NCBI GenBank assembly: GCA_030272585.1
Contig: BSYQ01000003.1
Location: 1,054,001-1,118,000 of the forward strand
DNA: 64,000 nt
Origin: Bryopsis sp. KO-2023
Taxonomy: Eukaryota > Chlorophyta > Ulvophyceae > Bryopsidales > Bryopsidaceae
Direction: 5' to 3'
Shown here piece by piece: positions 4,450-57,548 of the stretch (position 1 is the stretch's first letter; each line of letters starts with the position of its first letter). The translations under genes were made by a program, and so were the position numbers. The notes under the pieces are model-generated. The model ran no database searches. It was given only the letters and a program-made list of their open reading frames with translations, and was not told where the DNA came from.

Positions 4450-5612
4450 AAACGATCACATAATACTTCTCACAAAAAGATAACCACATGAAAAGGAGCC
4501 ATCTGAACATGGTTTCTTCTTTTTCAGATCAGGGGAAGGCCTTGAATGAGACGTAAATGCATGTACTTCAATCAGAAGCAAAGATGAGCAAAATATAACG
4601 TCGTTTAGCATCAATGTTTAGCATTTGACGCTTTTTTTGTGACCAAAAAACCTCAAAATACAGTTTCTCATCGGCCCCACCCTTCCTTGAAGCGGAACGG
4701 AGTCTAACGTGGTCCCTGCCAACTGCAGGCATTTCGAGGAGCCTCCTAAAGCCGCCATCACAATTTATAAGCCAGGTAGGAGTGTCGCAGGAATCCACTG
4801 GAGCGACCAGGTGTTGGGGGATGCACAAGGAATCTTTTTCGTGTGGGGCGGGCGATGACGATTTCAAGATGTCGCGTCACGCCAATTTCGCACAATTTCC
4901 AACAGATCAGGTGGATGATTCGCAGACGGTCAAGGGGTGAGATTGAAACTCAGCATGTTATTCGCGATGAGGATTCGTTGCCGACCTCCTCTCGTCTTTT
5001 TTTTTTTCTCATCATTGTCGTTAGGTGTACGTTTGTCGGCTGGTGGGGCTCTGAAACTCAATGATTGATTCATGGGAAGTTCAACAACGATCTGGTACCG
5101 TCCGGATCAAGTTAAACTCTGCAGCTGCGGAGCTTGTCAAGATGACGACTCAACAAGCAACCACTGCAGATTTCTTAACCTCAAACCCAAGGAGCCATAA
5201 CGTAAGCTTCAGTGTTGCTCTAGAGTTCTACAATTCTTTCACTGGCGTTCAGCGGTGCACGCTTCGAGATACCCGAAGTAAAACGACGTGTTAACCAACA
5301 ACAGAGCGCTTGGACTAAAGCTCGCGTCCTCTTGTTCGTGTGGTCGAGGCGGCGACGAGATAAGCCACCGGCCAGTGGGTTGCGGTTTCCGTGACTTGTG
5401 TCGTTGCTAACCGTGAAATCACACGATGATGTACGAAAAAGAGCCTTACTGGGGACGAATTCACTTTGAACGTATTGCCCGGAGCCTTTTGACAAAAACA
5501 CCGCTGCCATCGCCGTTGTTGTCGAATTTTTTACCGACCCAAGCTGCGACCTTATCAAGACTATAGCTTGTTGATATTTTTTTTTCGAACCTGCCGCACG
5601 AACTCTACGAAG
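4450..5612. other. Bidirectional promoter region
   Basis: Cysteine synthase (minus) and the FAS1 protein (plus) start at opposite ends of this 1.16 kb stretch. Open frames exist (minus 4867-4568, plus 4843-5064, and a long minus frame overlapping the FAS1 start), but none has splice context or family similarity. I read it as 5' UTRs and promoters. Confidence 0.45.
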
Positions 5613-7976
5613 ATGTGGCACACTGCTCTCCGAGTCGTTGCCCTTGTGGCCTTGCTGCTGTCTGGTGCGAAATAGATAGGTTTCGGCGAGGGCGATGTGT
5701 CGGATTCTTTTCTGATGTTCGCCGCTGCCTAACCACTCAACTTCGTTGCTTCTCGATCTCCTGCTATTTCTATCGCAGTCCTGCTTGTGCAAGGAAACAA
5801 AAGAGGAAAAAAGTTCGGTTGAGGGCTCCCTTTCTTCGCACTTCCCCTTTGTCCGCGCGCCTTTTTAAAACGTTCGTCTCTCTTCCAACGATTGTGCTTT
5901 CCTCTGGACCTCATCTTGCAGGTGCCAGCGCTAAGAACACAAGGTACATCGTAACCCAGCGTCCAAGTACACGCACTACGCAGTCTGGCGGGTGCAATAC
6001 TGCTGCGGATGTGTTGGGAAAAAACAGCGCAACCACCTTTTTGAAAGCAGTAAAAGCAGCCCGTTTCGAACCTGTTCTATCGGACCCTGCAAACCAGTTG
6101 AAGGGCGCTCTCTTCGTACCTACAAACGCAGCGTTTGCGGACCTCGCTCGTCAACTGGGCTTGAGTGTTCCACAGCTCCTGGCCAATGTTCCCCTCATCA
6201 CGGAAATTGTTCGTTACCACTTCGTCCAGGTGCGGAGTCCGTATCTCGATTTGTAGTGGCAAAGGTACAATTCGATCGTTTGGTAGATATCTGACTTGAA
6301 CTGGCTCTCCCTCAGGACGAAGTAAGGCGACTGTCAGATGTTGGGGATGGAGAAATCCTGCAGACAGCCTTGGGTGATGCTGCCAGCTGTGGTGTCAGCG
6401 TGATAAGGCTGAGAGTCGATGGAATCCAGACTTTCATCGACCAAGCCAGTAATCCTGCAAACCCTGCAGGAGTGGTGAAGCCCAACCTCCGCACCTGCAA
6501 TGGATTTGGATTACATGTGATCGATAAAGTGCTGTTGAGCTGTCCGATCGCGACATTGCGTCAGCTCTTCTTGGGCCAGGCAGCCCCAGCACTCCAACTG
6601 CCAGCGTTCACAACTCAACTTCAGCAAGGATTTCCACAACCAGTGCCCATTGTTCTCCAGCAAGCACAACAGGGCCAGTGTCAATCGCCTTTGCAGGTTG
6701 AAACCAATGAACTGGACCTCAACGAGCTTTTCTTTCCTCCTGAGATTTGTATATTTGGTGCTGTTTGCGACTTGTCTTTTGGATGGATGCAAAAGAAAGT
6801 CCTGATTTTGGAAATGCATGTCCATTATTAATCTCTTCGGCCATTTCTTCACGATTTTTTTCTGTTCTTGTGCTTATCCATCAGGCCATCCAGCAACTGC
6901 AACAGGAGGGCATCAACGTCCAAGGATTCCAGCTTTTCCTCCAAGTGACCAATCTGGTGGAAGCTTTCAGTGATCCTCAGGCAAACGCAACCATATTTGT
7001 CCCCACAGATGAGGCTATCCAGGCAGCTCTGACTGCCAATGGATTGACTTTCGACCAGCTGGCGCAGAATGTAAACGTTGTTCAGGATATTCTGTTCTAT
7101 CACGTGGTCCCCTCACCTGTGGGAGGAGCGGCATTGGACAGCACCCAGCTGACTGAAGGAGCTGTGCTTCAGACCTCACTCACAGCGCCACTGGTGGGAT
7201 GCATTCCATTTTTTGCTGATACATTGCATCTTACCCAACACATCGTTGCAGACCTTACTGACCAGAGATGCATATTTTTATTTTGCAGGCTCTCACTTGT
7301 GGTGTCAGCACTTTGACGATCACCAGGCCAAACAATGGCCTCGTTGTTCTCGGAGCCCAGGGGACGTCGGGTAATTCAGGCACTGCTGCTGCTCCAGCTG
7401 ATCGACGAAGTTGTGCCTCTGTCATTCATGTTATAGATGCCCTGCTCTTGCCTTGTCCTCTGGGAGGCACTCAACAGCAGCCAACACCTGGACAGCCACA
7501 ACCAGTGCCACAACCAGCACCAGTACCTGCTCAGCCGACACCGGTGCCACAACCTACACCAACACAGGTGGTCCCACCTGTTCCAACGGATGCATCTGGT
7601 GCTTTCCAGCTTGCGTTCGGTGATGCCTTCGCCCGGTCAGAGGCAAACTCTCCAAGTAAGACGCACTCACCTCTTATGTGTGTGAGACAGACCTGTGCAA
7701 CACATTCCCCAGTAAGGGCATCGTTCCAAAGCTGAAAGGGGAGTCTTTACGTCTGGGTGTGCGTGTGGTGGAGTGATTTTTTTCTCTGTTGTGGTTGCAG
7801 ATGTGGCTGAGGCTGAATCTGATGCCACCGCTCCAAGGACTGCGTTTTCTGAAGCTTTTGCGACTGGAGGCCAGGCTGCCAGGTCAGTTGCTAGAGCAAA
7901 CGGTGGGGAAAGAGCAGTTGCAAAGTCGGTTGCAGTGGCTGGACAGGCTGGTGGGCGAAAGCTGTTGTTGTTATGA
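5613..7976 (+). CDS. Secreted protein with two fasciclin (FAS1) domains and a Pro/Gln linker
   Basis: Exons 5613-5664, 5922-6229, 6316-6696, 6885-7193, 7289-7655, 7801-7976; phases agree, 530 residues. The start gives the signal peptide MWHTALRVVALVALLLSGA, split by intron 1. FAS1 domain 1 spans about residues 50-185 (LKGALFVPTNAAF, ITEIVRYHFV, CNGFGLHVIDKVLL). Domain 2 spans about 250-400 (ATIFVPTDEAIQAAL, ILFYHVVPS, SVIHVIDALLLP). Between and after lie Gln-rich segments and a Pro-Val/Pro-Thr tract (about 410-450) that resembles arabinogalactan glycomodules. The Ala-rich tail ends RKLLLL. FAS1 proteins act in cell adhesion and matrix organisation. The hydrophobic end is short for a classical GPI signal, so anchoring is uncertain. 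Confidence 0.9.
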
Positions 7977-28177: not shown

Positions 28178-29266
28178 ACTGCAGCGTTCCTCTCTTTTTT
28201 TTCTTTTGAAACTCCGAAGCTGAGCCGTCCGTCGATAAGAGCAGAAAAACAAGGGTCGAATTTGAAGTGAGAAAACTGCGAAAAAGAGACTATTGAGGGT
28301 GCGAGAATCGGTCGACCCGAAGCCTGTGACTGGACGTGTCAGGGGAAGTGGTTTGACAAGACGGGTTGGGTTGCAAGCGAATTCGTGGAAGATTATAGAG
28401 GGTGCAGGTGGTGGGACTGTCGTGCTTCGTTGAAGTTTGTTTCGACGGCTGTGTTGCACAGAGAAGCCACAGACATATACCCTGTTTTGAAACCATTCAA
28501 TAGACATCTTTTTACCCAGTTTTAAAACCATTGAATAGACACCCAGCCGCCGCCGGTGGTGTGTTGGACACATCTAAGAACCAAGCGTGAACGGAGCGGC
28601 ACCCCGTTCAGCGTTTTTTATCGTTCTTCATTCAGGACATTCCAACGTCGAAAGTTGGGTTTATTATCGAATCAGCGGAAAGAGCGTTTGTCAGCGTGGC
28701 CTCTAGGAACCAAATTTCGTCCACTTTCGAGCCGACGGCCGCCACCCTGCGCAAGTTTTTGACGCGCAGTCGTTTCTGTGAGTTGCCATATGTCGAAGCT
28801 ATGAAAGCTGCTTCTAATGTCGATTCCGTTGGACGAATCGAGTGGGGCCCCTATCATGTTAGCATCTTCCTTGCCAGTTGTCGAGCTGACTGCTAGGAGG
28901 TGACTCGGAGGCGGATCCATTTGCCCCAGCGCCCTTTTGCCAACACCTTCCAGTGGCTCGTTTTCGTTTCAGCGGAACAGCGCGTCGCTCCATCTTTCAA
29001 TTAGGTTGCATTTGGGGGTTCGGAAAGATAGCGGAAGTGTTTCAGTTCCAGCTTTCGTGCTGTTTTTCCGTTTTGTGATTTAATATATTTTTTTTGTACG
29101 TGCGTACGTGTGGTTGAAACACTCGAAAAAAAAAAAACACGATAAAACGGCGAAGGGAACACCAAAAACAAAAAAAATCTAGAAAGAAAGGAAAACACAG
29201 TCGGAGAGTGCGGTGGTGCTAGCTTTTTTTTTTCCGGGGAATTCTGAGAAGGAAAAGTATGCTAGC
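28178..29266. other. Divergent upstream region with an unexplained open stretch
   Basis: The HAD gene starts at the left edge on minus and the receptor kinase at the right edge on plus. From 28635 to 28895 the plus strand is open after a plausible acceptor (TTCATTCAG), and the minus strand is open from ATG 28920 to 28672. Neither connects to a convincing first or next exon, so I leave it unassigned. Confidence 0.4.
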
Positions 29267-32200
29267 ATGCGCATAGGGGCATGGAGGCTTCGTGTGGGTG
29301 TGGGGATTATCGCGTGTTTGCTGTTCGGTGCGACGGACAGCGCGTTGTCGGAGCCCCAGACAGGGCAATTGAACGGAACCTCGCCAGACATCGGCGGTTG
29401 CGAGGCGGTCGTAGAATACTCGGCCGTGACCGGTGACCCCGTAAAAGCAAACAAGTCTGCGATTTTCAGGGGATTCATAGTTGCCAGCGAGGTGAGCGCC
29501 GCACGCCAAAAATTCATGTGCGCTGTCGTGGAAATAATCACTACCTTCACGAAACCCCCTTCCTCGCGTGTTTTTCTGTCTTGCTCGCGGTGTTTTTTTT
29601 TGTTTGGGGGGGGGGAGGGGCGGAGGGGTCCAATCGTTGGGGTTTGGGGTTTTGAAAACGACACAGAGGTCCCTGCGCCGGGTTTTGTGCGATGAATTTT
29701 CCAAAAAGGGGCGAAATTTTGATCAGGATTTCGTAGTGTGGTTTCGTTTTGTAGTGTTGTGATAATAATAATGTGTTTTTTTGAATTGTCCGTCCCCCAG
29801 CATTCCAGCGAAGATGTCAATCTCCAATGGACTTTTTCTGAGGGTGAAGCTATAAGGGGTGGCACCGATGTTTTCAAAGACCCTGGACGGTCGCAGATAA
29901 CCCAAGAGCGGGGCGTCGAATTTTCCTCCACAACCAGTGATGATACGCAAACGGTGGAGCTTCAGTTTCCTTCAGGTTTGCTATTGGACAGGCAAAAACA
30001 AAAATAGAACAACAAAAAAAAGAAAAAAAATTTGCGGGGGTTGGTGATGGTTCCTTTCGAAATTCTTCGGGTTTGATGATTTTTTTTGTTTGAGGGAGGC
30101 TTTTTTCCCTGAAGCATTTTGAAAAGAAAGAAAAACATGAGGGAGAAAAATGTAAATAGAGAAAATACCAGTTATTTCAGTTGCTCAGGATTTGTTTTTC
30201 TCCCTGCTTCTGCTTAAACCACAATTGCACACTTGGAGCTCCAAACTAAGTCCTTTTTGGGGTGGTTTTTATAGATAACAACACCAACGTGGACATCGGC
30301 TTCATTGCATACAAGGGCCTCAGCAGCTCGTCGGCGCCCTCGGAGCCTGTCTATAAGGTGGGGCTGCCTTCGGAAGTCAAGTTCAATGAGCTGACGTGCA
30401 ACAGAGCCCCTGATGGCCGGCTGCCTCAGTATGTTGGGGTGGAAGATAAGGACGCTGTGGAGCCGAGGAAAAAAGTGTTGGAGTTGGAGTACCTTCCGAT
30501 CGAATTCACCAACATGCGTTTTTACAACGGCTTCGCGTCGAATTTTGCTATCTTCACCTTCAGGTAAACATTTAAGGCTGAAAGCTTGCTTTTTTTTTTG
30601 TTTAAGAAAATTCACTTTAACAAAAAGTCTATTTTTTTCCCTTGACAGCCTATTGTCAAGGTAAAACCACCTTAACTGAAATTTTCCATCAAAATTATGC
30701 AAAAAAAACCCCAAAAGGTAGCATTTCGAGTTTTTTTTTTCTGTCTTGCTGTTCGAGTGACATTTCTATGCTTGTTTTATCATTGAAGGATAAAAAATGT
30801 TGGTAACAAGCCAATAAATCTGACTGACGTGGAGCTCGAGTACTGGTTCGATGGAGGCGATTTCCAAGACAAACCTCCAAATCTGCTTTACAAATCCCTG
30901 TGCATGACCTCCACTCTCACAGGTAAGCAAACCTGCAATTCAACTTTTTTTTCCATTCGTTCCCTGCTTTTTCGTTCGTACAATTCTTCCGGGATGGGGA
31001 TTAACACACATGGTGTTTGCTGTGGAAAACGGCAGGCTGTGAGAATTTCCGCATCAACATCTTGCCTGGTTATCGGTATATCCGAGGAGCTCACTACAAA
31101 GTGAAAATCGGATTTTCTGAAGAAGCCGGTGCATTAAGTCCCGAGCCTGGGCTGGATTTCGGTGGACATCTGGGTCTGGGCGATGAAGAGGAGGTGAGCT
31201 TTTTTATTTTATTATTATTTTTGTTCTTTTTTGTTCAGTCGTGAATGACCAGGGTGGCAAATCAGCAAATCGGAGAAGGGATGCACTCAGAATTTTGCTC
31301 CTTGCAGGGAGAACGCTCCGATATCTTTTATTTTTGCGGACAGACATCATTTTGCACAGATTTTTTTATTTTTTGTTGGTTTTAATGATAAAAAGCAGTT
31401 TTTTACGTCTTGTTCTGGTTTATTTTTTCCAGGAGGAAGAAAGGCCTCCCTTTATGCTGGAGGCAATCGTGAACGTCACGTCCGTCCAGTTTTTCTCCCA
31501 GATCGATGTCACCAAGGACTATTCTTTCCTGAACACGACAGTCATCGAGGAAGATTCTCAGCTGCCGCCACAGTTGGTTTCCAGGAAATACGAACCCAAC
31601 AAGAAATTCCCTGTCTATTACAAGGGCGAAATCGTGTACGGTGCCCGACCCAAGTCTGGTGATCAGCAGGTAATGTTTTGCTTGGGGTTTCTTTCCACAG
31701 TCCACAATCGAGTGGTGAGAAGCTGCTTATTTTATTCATTATCTGCTCAATTTCTGAGATTTCTTTTGTCAATTTTTTCCTCCTGAATAGGTGAAACCTG
31801 TGTCTGATCCCAATCGAAATCAATGCTGGTTTAAGAAACCTGGAATTCAGCAGTGCGGTCTACGTGTGAAATACTGCTGCGTGAATCCTCCACCCCCAGA
31901 TGGTACCTCCACAGATCTGGATGTCTTAGGGGACCCCGTACCTGTCACCATCCCTCCACCAGACGAACAGGAAGCTCTTCCCGACTGGGCTGTGGTGGTC
32001 ATCGGTAAGCTGCGAGCTGCACACTCTCAGCCCTTCATTTGCAGTTCCATTTTCACAGAAGGGATAAATATCCACTACTTACCTATCACTGATTTCTTTT
32101 TTAAAAACACAGGGAGTTTTATTGTATTGTGTGTGTGTGTGTAGTTCTTTTGTTGGGATTGGTGCTGGCGTGCGCCTGTGTGTGTGCAATCTGTCGATGG

Positions 32201-35124
32201 AAAAGGGCCGTATGTTTTTCCAGACGGCCCTTTTTAAAATCAGGAAGTTCGCACGATGACATTCTGGGACCCATGCGTGACGAATTCGGATCTCACGCAT
32301 GGAGCATCGTCAACGGTGGTGAGGGGGTTTCATATAATTTCCGATTCTCATAAAAGCCCTCAATCTTTTTTTTTCTTTTTTTAATTTCGCCATAATCCAA
32401 GGTGTTTCTCTAATGAAACCGAGAACATCTCCTAAAGATTTTTTCATCTTTTTTATTGTCTTTTTTTCTTTTGATGCTGAAATCCAAAAACGAAGAGTGC
32501 GGCCTGGCAGTGTTTTTCTTTTGCTTGACTTTGAATTTTCTCCTCTTTTCCGCACGCAGAGTCCAAGAAAGAAATCAGGGTAGTCAAGAAGAGCCCAACC
32601 GATTTCGGCGATTCGGATGGTGAAGATGAGATCAGGCGCAGCTCCACCAAGTTCCACACCGTCCCTTCTATATCAGGGGTCGATTCGTGTTTGCTTTTGG
32701 ACAAAGCAGCAAATTGGGATCCAAGGTGCGAAATTCACAAAAAATCTCTTTTCCTGATAAAATCTCTTTTCTTGATGTTGGCTTCACCATACACTCTGTG
32801 TGACGAGGTCTTTTTCTTGTTCTTTTTTTCATTGTTTGGCCCTCTTCAAACAGAAAGGGGGGTGGGGGGGATGATGCTTTGAAAACCTTTCTTTTCTGAA
32901 ATATCGAGTTCTCCAGAGTCAATTCAGATATTTTCCATTCCTCAGTTTTTTCGCAATTCAACAATGGAAGCAAAAATGGGTGTTCATCTGGGTTTTTCTT
33001 CTGTTTTTTTTTTCAAATAATATCAGGGAGGAGAAGACTTGGACTGGGCACATCCATTGGCTGTGGGAGCCTTGGAACGTGTCTGAAGTCCGAAGGACAG
33101 CCACAGCCCTGCCTCCTGTTGGAAAACCAGGTCAATTCTTTACTCTCTCCACCAAGAAGCTCCCCATGATCGATGTCAAGGTCGATTTCAAGACTGAGAT
33201 TGAGCCCTACCTTGGAGAGCAGCTGGTAAACTACCAGAAATTGAACTGGACCGAAAAGAGAGTGTGTATCCTGTGTTGTTTTTTTTTTTCTGCAAACGGA
33301 AATGTGTTGCTTCAATGGGGCTGTTTTGTGGTGATTGCAGGGGGAAGGTGGCTTCGGAAAAGTTTTCAAGGCCATGTGGAGGGACCAAGATGTTGCTGTC
33401 AAGGCAAGTTTCTGATTTGCTTGTCTCTGGGAAAAACGAACCTGAAAATCCTGCGTTTTCATAAAAACGCGAAAAAGCCCTTTACAAGCCCTTGTTGAAA
33501 AAGCATTGTGCAGCGTGTATTCATTCCGCAGACATCCCAGAAAGAGAAATTGGGATTTTTATATTAATCCCAATTAAATGAATTTTCTAATTTTTTTTTT
33601 GAAACTTGTCTTTTTTTTTTCTTTCATCCAAAACAGGTTCTGAAAGTGGATACGGAAGCGATGATAAGAAGTCTGGAGGACGAAATCAAACTTTCCAGCA
33701 AAATGCACAACGAGAGGGTCGTTCGGCTGCTGGGGGCTTGCTTGGGAAACAAAGACAATGTGTGCCTGATCATGGAGCTGGTGGAGGGGGGGAATCTGTC
33801 GAAAAGGATTCACAACAAAAATTTGAGGCGGCTGGAATACCTGGAAGTGCTCCAAATTGGGCTGGACATTGTTCATGGGCTTGCTTACCTGCACCCCTCC
33901 GTCATTCATAGAGATTTGAAACCGCAGAATGTGCTGTTGAACAAAGACGGCCGTGCTAAAATCGCTGATTTTGGCATTTCTAAATTTAAGGTACCGTGAG
34001 GGGGAGTTATTTCTGCTGTGGAAGTGGAAGACCTCTTTTTTCCCCCCTCGTGGGGGATCTTCAAAACCGTTGATCGAAAAGAAAACCTGCTGCTTTGTTT
34101 CTGAAAGCGCTGCAGGAGGAGGTTGCTACGGACTTGTTGGTGTTTTCGAGATCGACCCTTTTGACTGATTTTTTTGGTGTTCTTTTTTTCCAGGACCCCC
34201 ACAAGAGTTACCTCTCTGTGACCCAAACGGGTGGGACTCCAAACTACATGGCCCCAGAACTGTTTAATGGGACACGGGTTGATGAAAAGTAAGTGCTGTT
34301 TATGTCGACTACCTATTTTTTCTTAATTTGTCTGCGGAGGGGCAGAGAATAATTGAGCCATTTCTAACATGCCCTTTCTATGAAAATAAAAAAGACTGAC
34401 TCGATGAGCACCCAGGCACAAATTTGGCCTGGGTGGCTGAAACAGTATATGAGTCCTCGCAAGATAAAAACCTCAATTCTGAAATTTTTTGTTTGATAGC
34501 CCTGATTTCTAAACGTTGTTTTGGATGGTTGGTTTGTTTGCAGATGTGATATTTTCTCATTAGGATGCATTTTGTATGAAGCTATGTCTCGAAGGGTCCC
34601 CCTTTCTGATCTTCCCAGTGACAATTGCGCCCCATTATTCCAGGTAATCAAATTTACGCACTGCCCACACTTCACATATAAAATCAATGCCATGTATACA
34701 CACAAATATGTTACACATGGTCAAACTGCCAATGATAATGTCAGGTTCAATGAAATTTGCCCGTGCCTGCATAAAAATATCGACTGCGTTTATGTGTTTT
34801 TTTGCTTTTCAATGATGTATGGTACAGATCATCAAAACTGTGGCCATCGACAAGCGCCGGCCGAAGATTCCAGACAATTTCCCTGCGGATCTGGCTGATT
34901 TGGTCAGGGCTTGCTGGAAAGATAACCCCAGGAGCCGGCCCGGCTCATCTGAAGTGGCCAAAGAGCTGGAAAGAATGATCGATGACGAGGTTGGCAGGCA
35001 AAGAAGGCTAAGGAAGGCTGCTCACACCCCGGGCCGGAAAGATTCCAGCCAGAGCTCAGCGAGCGCAGGCAAGAGAAGCCCCAATATCCTTGATAAGTTG
35101 CATGCACTAGGGGGCAGGGATTAG
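29267..35124 (+). CDS. Receptor-like kinase with CBM2-like and CBM3-like ectodomain
   Basis: Fifteen exons: 29267-29491, 29801-29975, 30275-30563, 30789-30922, 31036-31193, 31433-31669, 31791-32004, 32145-32318, 32560-32725, 33027-33261, 33341-33403, 33637-33990, 34194-34288, 34544-34643, 34828-35124; 971 residues, all phases consistent. Signal peptide at the start (MRIGAWRLRVGVGIIACLLF). Residues about 45-150 resemble CBM2 (CEAVVEY, LQWTFSEGEAI, VDIGFIAYKG). Residues about 205-395 resemble CBM3 (FRIKNVGNKPINLTDVELEY, YKVKIGFSEEAGALSP, FPVYYKGEIVYGARP). A Cys-rich, Pro-ending stalk precedes the membrane helix near 472-495. The TKL-type kinase, about 668-945, has GEGGFGKVF, VAVK, HRDLKPQN, DFG, APE and a final Arg, so it looks active. 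Exon 11 ends at a GC donor. Likely a wall-polysaccharide sensor (inference). Confidence 0.9.
33404..33636 (+). other. GC-AG intron in the kinase gene
   Basis: The exon encoding the invariant VAVK ends AAG followed by GCAAGT, the standard sequence of non-canonical GC donors. Using the nearest GT instead breaks the kinase frame. The acceptor is AAAACAG before GTTCTG. Confidence 0.85.
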
Positions 35125-46468: not shown

Positions 46469-49288
46469 CTACACAAGCTCCTGCCTGGATTCTTGGTAGG
46501 CCCTCCACATGCTCTCTGAGAAAATTTTTGCTTTGTGTTTGTCGACTACCCCCTCGTATCGGAGCTTCAGCAAACTGCTCCAAACACACATCTTGAAAAC
46601 AAATCTATTCGACCTGCCTTTGAAATCGCAAGGAATTTCCGGAAAAACGAGAGTTGTTCCAGTTCCACATGCTCCAATTTCTGGGTCGCTGAGATCCAGG
46701 TCCAAGGCGTTGTGATGGACTGACGACTTTCCGGGCCATCGCACGACGACTCTGGCTTTGGTGGCGGCGCCCATTCCAAAGAGCTGACGTTTATCGGACG
46801 AGGAATGCAGATTACCGCTTGTGAGGGGACGGATGACGGTTTTCAAACCTTCGGGGGTAAAGCTAACTATTGCGCCAGTAGCATCCCGATTGACCTCCGC
46901 GTGCCAGACGTCCCCGACTGACCCTCGAAACCGGATCCTCACACCCTTATTCTCACTGTTGGCGTCATTGATTTCAAGAGCGAGCCGACCGCTGGCCTCA
47001 GGGGTTAAACCAACGGGATTCACCCAGGGAAATCCACCCGATCGTTCAGAGAACGTTGGGTAGTGAACCGCATCCTTCATGAAAGGACTGCCGGCGACGC
47101 AGGCGGAATCATTGCTGTCGATCACCAAGAGGCCATCGCGACTCACCTCCGCACCGCTGATCGCCGCATAGTCTGGAAAACAATCGCCATTGAAGTCTCC
47201 TGCCGCCAATCCAGACATGATCAACGTATTATACGCCCCCTCACCAAGCGCATCGCTTCTGTTAAACGTTCCCGAACAAATCCCGATGTTTTCGTACACA
47301 GACCCTGGCGTAACGATCCCCGCGCTCGCAGAAACCATCCCTCCAATGTGCACGATGTCGAGATCTCCATCGTTTTCCAGGTCCATCATCTCCACCCCCC
47401 ACCCAAACATGTTCGCTTTCAATCCACCCAACCCACGGAACGTGAATTTCCCGTCCTCCGACCCAAACACCCACTGAGATGACTCCTCCTCGAAACAAAC
47501 GTCTGGAGGGGCACCTTGAAGACCCAACAACCTCGTCTGGATGCTTCCCAAACGAGTCACGAAAAAATCAATGTTTCCATCGCAATTCAGATCCCCGAAC
47601 GCCTGGCCCATATTGGCTGCTTCGTTTGAGAGATTGAATCCGGCCTGTTCGGTGATCCATTCAAAATTTCCATCCCCGTCGTTCGAGAACAGTTTAATCG
47701 TGCCTCGACTGGTTCCCCCCATCCCACCCCGATCGTCAAAGAAAAACACATCCAGGTCGCCATCCATATCAAAATCCACCAGAGCTGCAGACCATGTTCC
47801 ATTGTTTTTGCCTTGATAGCCGCCCAGACCTCTGATGTCCGTTTCATCTACGAAATGCTGCTCAGCTTCTGGACCCTGTTAGAAGTCAAGCATTTTAGCA
47901 CCATCGCATTTTAGAGTCCAGATTTTCAAAGATTATTTGGATACTTTAATACACAATGAGATCCACCTCACTCAAAAATGGAAATCGAAGGCTATAAAGT
48001 TGCTGCAAAGTTTTTGGGGGCCCCTTTGAGAATTTTAAAAGAACACAAAACAGAGGAAACCACCCCCCCTCCATCACAGAAATCAAACAGCATATTCTGA
48101 AATCACGAATTGTACATAAGATGCTAAACAAATGTAAGGAGTGCCACCCTAGCCCCGGGTTTTCACCTGATTGATGTACAGCTGGTTCGGGCTGCCGTAA
48201 GCAAAGGGATCAGCAAAAATTCCCAAAATATTAACGAATGTTGTGGAAATGAGCAAATCCACCAGCCCATCCCCGTTCACATCTCCGCACGTGCATGAGG
48301 AAGGCTCGTAGTCTGACGTATCATTTTGTGCAACAGAAACATCCACAAAAACCCCTCCATCGTTCCTCAACAAACTCCAAGGGTGCCGGCTGTTCAGTAC
48401 AATCAAATCCTCATCCCCATCGTTGTCAATATCACAGCCACACACCGCATTGCTGTCAATCCCTTCCAGCTGGACCCCGAATTTTTCCCCAGCTTCGTGG
48501 AATTCCAGTCTGCCAGCTTCGTTCAGTTGATTTAGAAACAGTTGATTGGCTTGGCGATCTCCAGTGGGGACGTAAATGTCCAAATCGCCGTCTGAATCTG
48601 CATCCAGCAGAGCGATTCCGGGCCTTCCGAAAGCTCGGACAGGTGATGGGTTGTTTTTGGTGAAAACGTTGGCCCAGCCCTCAGATTTGGCTCGTTGATA
48701 ATCGTCAGTTTTGCTGGGATGCTTTCGAGCAAATCCAGTGATTGCAGGGTCATCGCTCCGCACAAATTTCACACTATCCGCAGCCGGAAACTGATTGAAC
48801 AAGACAAGGAAAAACAAGAAACATATGAGGAATGGAAAATTTAAAATAATACGTGTATAAATGGACAGAAAATGAATAAATAAATAAATGCAAGCCAGCC
48901 TAGAGTTGTAGGTGCTTCTCAAAAAATACCTCCTTTTGAACGCGTCAGTGGATGGCCACAGGCGTAACCCCCCAGAAAAACAATTTTGAAAAAGAAAAAA
49001 AATATATTAAAAGTTAGTGAGAGCAAATTTTGGCTCCACCCCTTCCCAGTTCATTATCCTGGTTATATTTATGTGCATGGCACTCAGTTGCCATGGCTGG
49101 AGGACTTTTACTTCGAATTCAGAAAAAAAATCTGGGGTTCCAATACCTTCCACATTGCAGCTCTAGACAAAAAGTAAAAATAAAAACAGATCCATGCGCA
49201 ATGTAAGACTCACCGACTGTGAAATGATCAAAATGATGAGAATTTTTTGGAGCTTCCCCCCGAAGCCAATTTTCTCAAACAGGTCCAC
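46469..49288 (-). CDS. FG-GAP / ASPIC-UnbV repeat protein (CRTAC1-like); 5' end incomplete
   Basis: Supported exons 49288-49214, 48790-48167, 47875-46469, all phase 0 (701 codons). The main part carries seven calcium-loop repeats: DADSDGDLDIYV, DIDNDGDEDLIV, DVNGDGLVDLLI, DFDMDGDLDVFF, DLNCDGNIDFFV, DLENDGDLDIVH and DFNGDCFPDY, forming an integrin-alpha-like propeller. The C-terminus has the ASPIC/UnbV pattern (FGMGAATKARVVVRWPGKSS). Relatives are extracellular calcium-binding proteins (CRTAC1 in animals) and bacterial UnbV proteins. Exon 49288-49214 encodes a hydrophobic stretch (KLQKILIILIISQS) that would serve as signal sequence or type II anchor. Upstream, an in-frame block ending at 49347 (possible start ATG 49658) could be the first exon, but its sequence is unremarkable. 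The last exon of 1.4 kb is unusually long for this window. Confidence 0.85.
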
Positions 49289-54828: not shown

Positions 54829-55991
54829 GGTGACAGAATGGTACGCCTTCAGCACTTTCCGTGATTGCTGTTTTGTCTGGTGTGTTGCAAACAAACGCAA
54901 ACCTAAGGGCTTGTTTCAAACAAAAAGCAAATATCTGACATAGTTTCCACGGTTCCTGCAGGCGTCGATTCAACTGGAAACTCTTTTATTTGGGGGGGGG
55001 AGAGAGATGGAAGTTTCCATAATATTCTTAGCGGATAGAAACGAAATTGAAAAGCAGACACTGAGTCCAACAGCGGGTGGAGAGAAAAAAGGGAGATTTG
55101 CAGCTTAGGGCATCAATCTGTAATTTTATGTAGAAGAAGGAAAAAGGTGAAAAAGAAACAAAAAGTGGAAAATGAGAGAAATTGGGCATAGTTGGTGACA
55201 CAGGATAGTAATGATGTCACGATATTTGTAAGCAACACTTCATGTCTGTTGAGGGTCTTCAATATGGAGTTCGTCTCTTATCACTTGTTTTAAAAACTAG
55301 AAAATTCCCCCAAAAAACCTCAAGGGAAGGAGATGCTCCGAGCGTGCTTTTGTTTTCAGAAGAGAAATACTGTTCTCAGCCCCCCCGCGACTCCCAACAT
55401 ACACAGATACATATATAGAGAGAGACAGACCTGCCCTTCCCCTTCCTTCTGCACAATGGTGCGCATGAACAGCTCATTGATTGAGACTTGAACCAGGCCC
55501 CAGGTGTACAGCCACAGCGACCTACTCAAGTGTAAACAGATTCCAGATTCCTTCCCCACTTCTTGAGTCTCTTTGGAGGATCCGACCAGCCATCCCAGCA
55601 TTCCAAAAACAAAAAAAACAAATCGACCGAAATTTTCACGAATCCGCTTCTCTGAGTCCATCAGAACCAGCAATCATTCCACCTTGCCCCCCCCCAAAAC
55701 GTGCCTTCTTCTCAAATGGTGTTGAGCGTATCAAGTCTAATATTCACCATCTTTCAGTTGTTGAACCCTCGTTGACGACTCTACATGTCCACCATCACCA
55801 TGCACACATGATAGCACAGGCCGTCGCTTTCCGTTTATTCAAATCAAATCAAATCATGATTACACACATTTCCGTTTATTCAGCGAGCTGTCCCTGCGCT
55901 TGTGACAATAGCAGTCTATTCCTAGATCACCTTGCTTCCTCACAGTTCGCTCGAATCGCTCCATAGTGCAACGAGCGTCTGAGAACGCCAC
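54829..55991. other. Intergenic, no supported gene
   Basis: A minus frame at 55673-55356 encodes a mildly hydrophobic 105-residue peptide and a plus frame overlaps it (55481-55966). Neither has splice context or family similarity. The upstream region of the transporter lies at the right edge. Confidence 0.4.
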
Positions 55992-57548
55992 ATGGACGTG
56001 AATGACAACCCAGCAGAGGGAGGATCCGAGATTCCTCTCCTAAGCAACGATTCAGCTCCGGCTACCAAACTGGAGGTCGACGCCGTCTATCGAAAAGTGG
56101 CCTGGACGCTGGTTCCTTTCTGTTTTGCCACGTTTTTCGTTTGCTATGTGGATCGCACCAACATCAGTCTGGCTGCCATGGACATGTCTTCAGATATCGG
56201 CCTGACAAAATCGCAGTTCGGAATGGCTTCCAGTCTCTTTTTCATAACGTACATGATTTTCCAAATCCCCAGCAATGAGATTTTGAAAAGAGTGGGGGCC
56301 CCATTGTGGTTGGGGATATTACTCATTGGATGGGGCTTGGCTTCCTCCTTGACGGCATTTGTCAGAAATGTAACAGACCTCTATGTTCTCCGCCTTCTGC
56401 TGGGGATCTTCGAGGCTGGGACAATACCTGGGGTGTTTTTCTATTTGGGTCAGTTTTTCCCAGCATCTCGAAGCTCTGGAGTGTATGGGATATCTCTCGC
56501 AGGATGTGCTGTTGGCATGGCGATTTCGGCCCCCTTGGCTGCTGGGTTTTTGTCAATGGATGGAGTCTTGGACTTCAGGGGGTGGCAATGGTTATTTCTG
56601 CTAGAAGGGCTGCCAGCAATAATCCTTGGGGTTGGAGTTATGTTTTATCTGCCGAAATCCCCTGAGTCGGCACCTTTCCTGACCAAAAGAGAGCGGGTGA
56701 TTTTAGAAAGTGACAGGACCCCCTCAAAGGCCCCTGTGGATGGAAATCTCAATGGCTTGCTGTACCTCTTGAGAACAGTGGTTATGAACATCAAATTGGG
56801 GGTGATTGTGTTTTGCGGTTTGCTGTTTGGTACGATGCGATATGTTGCCATGTTTTGGACACCCCTCTGGATCGATGCCTTGGTCAGTGGGGGTGGCTTA
56901 GATTGGGAAAAAGCAGAAGCCACCAGTCATTCCAGCAACAGTGTTCAAGTCGCTCTACTGTCGACCCTCCCCTATGCCCTGGCTGCATTCAGTACAGGGT
57001 TGTTTGGCTGGACTTCTGAAAAACTCCAGGATAGAACCATTCACTGTTTCTTCTTGCTGCTGATCGGGGGTTTGTTCTTTTCACTGTTGCCGTATCTTGC
57101 TGGAGTGGATGTTGCTCTAGGATTTGTTGCACTGGTGTGTGGGCATATTGGGGTCAATGGGATCTGGGGGCCGTATGTCTCACTGCAGGTCTCCTTCATG
57201 ACTGAAGAAAACAAGGCATTTGCACTAGCATGGATGAGTACGATCGGTAATTTCAGTGGATTGTTTGGGCCCATGATAACTGGATTTCTGGCTGACCAGA
57301 CTGGGTCGTATAAATCAGGCATTTGGGGAACTGGTGCTATGACTATTGTAGCAGGTTTAGCGATAATTTTTGTCAAGGATGCTGTAAGGGAAAATCGTGG
57401 AAAAGGCCAAGTTCAACTGAATCTCTGCAGGGGGGGGGTGAGGGACCATCCTCATGTATCCATTACTTTTTTCAATTTTTTGCAAAGCTTTTTGAAATTG
57501 TTGATTATTTTTGTCCTGTTGCCACTTTGTTTTTATGTAAATGGTTGA
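55992..57548 (+). CDS. MFS transporter, anion:cation symporter type, intronless
   Basis: A single open frame of 518 codons in an intron-rich window. About twelve membrane helices are visible. Family marks are the helix-1 motif CYVDRTNISLAAMDM, the loop with GLTKSQFG, the cytoplasmic RLLLGIFEAGTIPGV of the ACS family, and PESAPFLTKRER in the central loop. This family moves organic anions such as allantoate, nicotinate, tartrate or phthalate with protons, as in fungi and bacteria; the substrate is unknown. The homologous part ends near AIIFVKDAVRENRGKG. The remaining tail follows a GGGGGGG run and reads like read-through, so a splice donor (GTGAGG) or a frameshift at 57431-57437 may shorten the real protein. 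Lack of introns suggests horizontal transfer or retroposition. Confidence 0.9.
   Translation: MDVNDNPAEGGSEIPLLSNDSAPATKLEVDAVYRKVAWTLVPFCFATFFVCYVDRTNISLAAMDMSSDIGLTKSQFGMASSLFFITYMIFQIPSNEILKRVGAPLWLGILLIGWGLASSLTAFVRNVTDLYVLRLLLGIFEAGTIPGVFFYLGQFFPASRSSGVYGISLAGCAVGMAISAPLAAGFLSMDGVLDFRGWQWLFLLEGLPAIILGVGVMFYLPKSPESAPFLTKRERVILESDRTPSKAPVDGNLNGLLYLLRTVVMNIKLGVIVFCGLLFGTMRYVAMFWTPLWIDALVSGGGLDWEKAEATSHSSNSVQVALLSTLPYALAAFSTGLFGWTSEKLQDRTIHCFFLLLIGGLFFSLLPYLAGVDVALGFVALVCGHIGVNGIWGPYVSLQVSFMTEENKAFALAWMSTIGNFSGLFGPMITGFLADQTGSYKSGIWGTGAMTIVAGLAIIFVKDAVRENRGKGQVQLNLCRGGVRDHPHVSITFFNFLQSFLKLLIIFVLLPLCFYVNG

Follow-up and report, generated by a model that had tools for sequence, protein, structure and literature searches.

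Known carbohydrate-module receptors and the Bryopsis locus

The RsgI anti-sigma factors of Clostridium thermocellum (PDB 4b97, 4b9c and 4b9p) carry a CBM3 carbohydrate-binding module outside the cell, one membrane span and a signalling part inside, and the available text of PMC4711584 assigns CBM3 to RsgI1, RsgI2 and RsgI4. We describe here a predicted gene of similar plan from Bryopsis sp. KO-2023 (genome of 91.09 Mb in 28 contigs), located in a window of 64,000 nucleotides (C3:1054001-1118000). Put most cautiously, this gene appears to encode a receptor kinase whose ectodomain derives from CBM3. The RsgI CBM3 sensors seem to be its closest working analogue, and RsgI 4b97 was the best single-sequence PDB match of the Bryopsis ectodomain and first in both lists of fold matches. 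They differ in being bacterial and in their opposite topology, with a C-terminal CBM (PMC4711584, in the available text), and they signal through an anti-sigma factor and proteolysis rather than a kinase (PMC12203970, in its accessible part).

Malectin and malectin-like receptor kinases (CORK1/IGP1, FERONIA and ANXUR) resemble the Bryopsis protein in having a carbohydrate-module-like ectodomain and a wall-linked role, as described in the accessible parts of PMC10139151 and PMC6038381. Their ectodomain belongs to another family, and among kinases of known structure those closest to the Bryopsis kinase are TAK1 and CTR1. The CBM3 modules of scaffoldins and GH9 cellulases share the homologous domain and the predicted fold, but they belong to secreted enzymes and scaffolds, and the strip and calcium residues, largely conserved across 75 bacterial modules, are changed in Bryopsis. 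A close protein also comes from Bryopsis sp. KO-2023 itself: BSKO_02619 (P0002), whose ectodomain is 88-89% identical to that of the receptor kinase; it differs in having 468 residues, ending past the Cys module and lacking a kinase.

Chlorophyte receptor-like kinases are few and patchy in distribution, according to the available text of PMC10868138. Among the titles and abstract openings of the literature matches listed, with subscription literature mostly outside their scope, no CBM3 receptor kinase was described, and the same matches contained no report of wall monitoring in siphonous giant-celled algae with 1,3-xylan walls. With a CBM3-derived ectodomain, the receptor kinases of the plant lineage would gain a further ectodomain class; the Bryopsis receptor would mean that the sensor plan of the bacterial CBM3 proteins was invented a second time, and it would offer one specific protein for testing wall sensing in Bryopsis wound healing. 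The initial annotation had placed the gene in a streptophyte alga; Bryopsis is an ulvophyte chlorophyte.

Homology of the ectodomain to CBM3

Pfam CBM_3 (PF00942) matched residues 222-251 with an expectation value (E) of 1.5e-3 and 19.4 bits. Because this score lies under the curated cut-off of 22.4 bits, which was also missed by the ectodomain piece (20.2) and by P0002 (19.0), we call the domain CBM3-like. Precomputed database labels place PF00942 on P0002 and on P0001, an environmental relative described below, while the family was absent from our Pfam scan results for P0001, P0003 and P0004. An exon-wise PF00942 search of the whole genome gave no match at 1e-3, and its five weak matches at E<=10 all fell in the receptor-kinase gene and its copies on contig C2.

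In a PDB search with residues 196-405, all nine distinct chains at E<=10 were CBM3 modules, as identified from their structure titles (best 4b97, 2.3e-5). A profile of five sequences (the Bryopsis receptor-kinase gene and P0001-P0004) again recovered CBM3 exclusively: all 14 solved chains within E<=10 belonged to the family, the best at 7.6e-9, and in four of the five printed alignments the last CBM3 strand was aligned too, as a separate and for the most part weak segment that kept the expected order. These matches, with the Pfam hit, bear out the order of CBM3 signature elements first noticed by eye. Two entries in one of the lists of fold matches, CelQ and BlCel9A, presumably contain a CBM3c. 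Comparison by hhalign with five CBM3 fragments gave 98.5%, the fragments themselves being drawn from the PDB-search matches.

We also built a hidden Markov model (HMM) from 75 bacterial CBM3 modules, a non-random sample taken from the best 80 of 271 loci matching AD[TQY]Y[LVC]E[IL][GAS]F, of which five loci shorter than 1480 bases were dropped. Residues 31-470 scored 27.4 bits and residues 206-404 scored 31.3 bits, against a best score of 7.4 bits among 2000 shuffled sequences (873 scored at all). P0001 reached 19.4 bits, P0003 12.0 and the N-terminal module of the Bryopsis protein -1.0. Positions D89, Y91 and E93 were left unused, since selection by the pattern made them invariant by construction. 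As the PDB matches were all CBM3 and the HMM score stood far above the shuffles, we consider the sequence-based case for CBM3 homology, well beyond chance, to be firm.

The domain is predicted to fold as a CBM3 sandwich, although bacterial CBM3 rows in the alignment mean that this prediction is no independent test. The close structural matches, headed by 4b97, included RsgI biomass-sensing CBM3s. An acidic insert, DEEEEEE (residues 324-330), lies inside the domain.

The initial annotation had proposed a CBM2-like module ahead of CBM3, and the profile search bore out the CBM3 part alone. The N-terminal module matched no Pfam family at E<=10, returned three chance matches in the PDB (E 5.3-8.2) and reached an hhalign probability of 1.2% against four CBM2 sequences, so a CBM2 module finds no support. 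As this module has no confident predicted fold, a very divergent kinship to CBM2 is still conceivable. Its Cys175 is kept in relative P0004.

Receptor-kinase architecture and gene model

Hydropathy and domain searches place a putative signal peptide, the ectodomain, one membrane helix and a kinase in one predicted protein, in agreement with the proposal that a single frame encodes a receptor kinase whose ectodomain is CBM3-like (Table 1). The N-terminus is hydrophobic in windows within residues 3-28, and the membrane helix is the single strong one in the protein, with a peak hydropathy of 3.24 in a 19-residue span. The catalytic motifs of the kinase (glycine loop, VAVK, HRDLKPQN, DFG and APE) are intact, consistent with the apparently active TKL kinase seen initially. 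TKL membership also agrees with the nearest solved kinases, TAK1 (2.2e-41) and then CTR1 (1.4e-36), followed by LysM receptor kinases and CERK1 (1.4e-34 and 1.9e-34). Given this proximity to TAK1 and CTR1, signalling below the receptor may resemble that of MAP3Ks more than that of RLK/Pelle kinases, the class to which we take the kinases of malectin-type receptors to belong.

The predicted model runs through 15 exons and 14 introns in a single frame, and hand splicing left every junction in frame. Thirteen introns are GT-AG and one, inside the kinase region (33404-33636, donor at 33404), is GC-AG. Start, stop and frame stood as initially annotated, and the end of exon 10 was revised from 33261 to 33225 (donor GTAAAC), because the kinase entry LGEQLGEGGFG then aligns with P0001. 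The 12 residues thereby dropped lie immediately before the glycine loop, shortening the protein from 970 to 958 residues; the Pfam coordinates of the kinase came from the 970-residue model and are numbered 12 higher than in the 958-residue model.

Table 1. Predicted features of the receptor-kinase gene, in window coordinates
Feature	Position	Strand	Basis or remark
Whole gene	29267..35124	+	958 aa, predicted; start 29267, stop 35124; exons spliced by script
Exons 1-5	29267-29491, 29801-29975, 30275-30563, 30789-30922, 31036-31193	+	
Exons 6-10	31433-31669, 31791-32004, 32145-32315, 32560-32725, 33027-33225	+	
Exons 11-15	33341-33403, 33637-33990, 34194-34288, 34544-34643, 34828-35124	+	
Putative signal peptide, residues ~1-26	29267..29344	+	hydropathy and eye
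N-terminal module, residues 45-175 (Cys45 to Cys175), no known family	29399..30399	+	no Pfam, PDB or CBM2 match
CBM3-like domain, residues 211-403, exons 3-6	30505..31660	+	profile, PDB and HMM matches
Juxtamembrane Cys module, residues 418-436 (C..C..YCC)	31824..31880	+	Cys pattern common to P0001 and P0003
Membrane helix, residues ~472-494	31986..32194	+	hydropathy; split by intron 32005-32144
Cytoplasmic linker, residues 495-652	32195..33213	+	residues 566-652 inside BLASTP alignment to P0001
TKL protein kinase domain, residues ~653-907	33214..34968	+	PF00069 6.4e-54, PF07714 2.9e-50
Repeated stretch, from the 5' flank through exon 7 as far as YCCV	28886..31885	+	found in four copies on contig C2, all lacking the kinase exons

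Relatives and the integrity of the gene

The protein searches, which in two cases scored the candidates with the most words in common (7993 and 7997), returned P0001-P0004 as the only relatives, and the receptor-kinase gene's own annotated protein record was not among their matches. P0001, an environmental protein of 837 residues, bears most directly on whether ectodomain and kinase belong together: its unbroken open reading frame (ORF) runs from the second half of CBM3 through the Cys module and an apparent membrane helix into a kinase, as far as DFGISRIK. BLASTP aligned it to residues 566-795 of the Bryopsis protein at 44% identity. When its kinase part was compared with the Bryopsis genome, the best match was exon 12 of the receptor-kinase gene (56% identity, E=5.7e-37), the next kinase following at 4.3e-21. 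Its CBM3 part was listed at the receptor-kinase gene only (exon 5, 1e-4), among 54 of 144 candidates scored; a separate comparison showed that the C2 copies match it as well. Because those copies have no recognisable kinase in the sequence examined, the receptor-kinase locus is the only one, among the loci seen, that joins ectodomain and kinase.

Two adjacent genes, an ectodomain gene like those on C2 and a kinase gene, might have been joined by error. The similarity of the four C2 copies does stop just past the Cys module, with a stop soon after in one of them (L023), and P0002 as annotated consists of the ectodomain alone. However, P0001 carries both halves in one unbroken ORF and its kinase half best matches the receptor-kinase locus, which disfavours a mis-joined model, and every junction of the model is in frame; we regard the artefact as extremely improbable and a fused receptor kinase as very probable.

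The intron after residue 230 of the Bryopsis gene falls where the frames of P0001 and P0003 start and that of P0004 stops, and the end of P0001 coincides with the intron after exon 12 (residue 795). These ORF ends hint that intron positions are common to the relatives.

Ectodomain-only copies

The four copies on contig C2 (L021, L022, L023 and L024, at approximately 2.30, 2.88, 3.09 and 3.66 Mb) are 83-84% identical to the window in their main DNA blocks and, in three copies, 74-75% identical in one intron block. No recognisable kinase was found within the 9.5-9.8 kb examined at each locus. L023 and P0002 end in KSRFD, followed by a stop or the chain end, and P0002 carries a duplication present in L022. 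An ATG upstream of the start of the window gene is common to all four copies and is used in P0002. The codons compared are free of stops in three copies, whereas L021 has one stop, in exon 2. The ratio of nonsynonymous to synonymous divergence (dN/dS) against the window gene was 0.27-0.29 in all four comparisons (dS 0.18-0.21), which shows constraint on each pair as a whole, unassigned to either branch.

On C2 the ectodomain-only gene lies with other open frames in a repeated unit of more than 8 kb, present four times on the one contig and 86-97% identical by block. One of the other frames resembles what we take to be a bile-acid/sodium-symporter-type membrane protein. Capture by a transposon was considered and set aside: since the unit exceeds 8 kb, contains these other frames and, in L022, shows no inverted repeat of at least 40 bases, segmental duplication seems likelier. 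A decayed ectodomain fragment was also observed on contig C4 near 6,065,806 (L025, 5244-5827), in which exon 5 and its flanking sequence are left together with the junction of exons 6 and 7, exon 6 itself being mostly gone.

Contact face, wall chemistry and candidate ligands

We compared contact residues in an alignment with the 75 bacterial modules, using the numbering of CipA. From this module we take the cellulose strip to be D56, H57, Y67, R112 and W118, and assume five calcium-site positions. Y67 was not alignable, and none of the other four strip positions keeps the common residue. D56 (D in 75 of 75 bacterial modules) is M269 in Bryopsis; position 57 (67 W, 7 Y and 1 H) is T270; R112 (73 of 75) is H319, in a loosely aligned stretch; and W118 (73 of 75) is F348, one aromatic replacing another. 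At the calcium site, T44 (74 of 75) is D251 and D46 (70 of 75) is G253, while T122 and N125, both variable in bacteria too, are D352 and K355, leaving D126 (74 of 75; D356) as the sole position kept of the five. Together with the Pfam scores below cut-off and the existence of the ectodomain without a kinase on C2, these replacements weigh against a receptor that docks on the wall through a CBM3-descended face, as does the precedent of malectin-like ANXUR1, a CBM-like fold for which carbohydrate binding was not detected, according to the accessible text of PMC6038381. A loss of calcium binding would be compatible with CBM3 membership, because PDB 2l8a is a CBM3 titled as lacking a calcium-binding site. 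In the groove, where the residues of a CBM3c, with its calcium residues, are described in the available part of PMC4579020, R40 (75 of 75) is replaced by E247 and Y127 (72 of 75) is kept.

The initial annotation had gone on to cellulose sensing, a step that these results do not sustain. CBM3 ancestry, the RsgI biomass-sensing CBM3s among the close structural matches of the predicted fold, and the cellulose that lies beside 1,3-xylan in Bryopsis microfibrils (PMC6419167, in its available text) would all suit a true cellulose sensor. The same text reports mannan in the B. plumosa sporophyte and cellulose as apparently missing from most of the Bryopsidales genera examined. Since the strip positions are changed and the wall fibrils contain 1,3-xylan besides cellulose, cellulose binding appears doubtful, and a true cellulose sensor is improbable. 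The plant cellulose synthase model PF03552 also speaks against it, giving no match exon-wise over the genome, though the broader GT2 model PF13632 found nine pieces in the same genome; the two results do not settle cellulose synthesis. This PF03552-negative genome stands in contrast to the cellulose that the review reports for Bryopsis microfibrils (PMC6419167, available text).

The strongest counter-reading, argued by analogy, is that the CBM3 fold was co-opted for a protein or peptide ligand, as the malectin-like ectodomains of CrRLK1L receptors bind RALF, and that the wall is not the direct ligand. It would account for the changes in the strip and in groove residue R40, and it has a parallel in ANXUR1/2, which lost their carbohydrate surfaces, and in FERONIA, which binds RALF (PMC6038381, accessible text). 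P0001 and P0003, whose position 118 is S and V, nevertheless retain tryptophan at position 57 and with it a portion of the old face; we consider a protein ligand unlikely. We know of no candidate peptide ligand for the Bryopsis receptor. With Trp57 in the environmental relatives and Thr in Bryopsis, the ligand may differ between lineages.

An immune-type receptor for a foreign polysaccharide, from bacteria, oomycetes or epiphytes, would share its plan with pattern receptors such as CERK1, whose kinase was among the 25 matches; we rate this very improbable.

Possible role in wall sensing

On the analogy of the RsgI sensors and the wall-linked receptor kinases, contact with the wall seems the likeliest role, and wall sensing is a plausible inference. 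The best explanation overall, about evenly balanced between true and false, is that Bryopsis has here a receptor kinase that crosses the membrane once, docks on wall fibrils through its CBM3-descended ectodomain and signals the state of the wall. A wall polysaccharide as the ligand falls just short of an even chance, and wall integrity as the role is possible, if somewhat doubtful.

In such a receptor the ectodomain would stand in the wall space and dock on a fibril of the wall or on pieces of one, with 1,3-xylan as the foremost candidate and cellulose as the second, through a rebuilt contact face that would no longer be the standard cellulose strip. A change of contact, on wall loosening, wounding or protoplast extrusion, could then alter receptor clustering or tension and turn on the TAK1/CTR1-like kinase, passing the state of the wall to a MAP-kinase-type pathway. 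The four ectodomain-only copies, if secreted, would lie within the wall as competitors of the receptor for its binding sites.

More tentatively, the gene may represent a separate class of chlorophyte wall-integrity receptor, in which CBM3 was re-tuned to 1,3-xylan or mixed fibrils and fused to a TAK1/CTR1-like kinase before the split between P0001 and Bryopsis, in parallel to RsgI and independently of malectin and WAK receptors, with the soluble copies arising later as competitors.

Other features of the window

A Fasciclin domain (5567-6256, + strand, 8.1e-6) marks another possible wall or matrix protein in the window. On the - strand, positions 46469-49006 include two frames that carry FG-GAP repeats, joined in one of them by UnbV_ASPIC, and a long open MFS transporter frame of 521 residues (2.3e-43) occupies 55983-57548 on the + strand.
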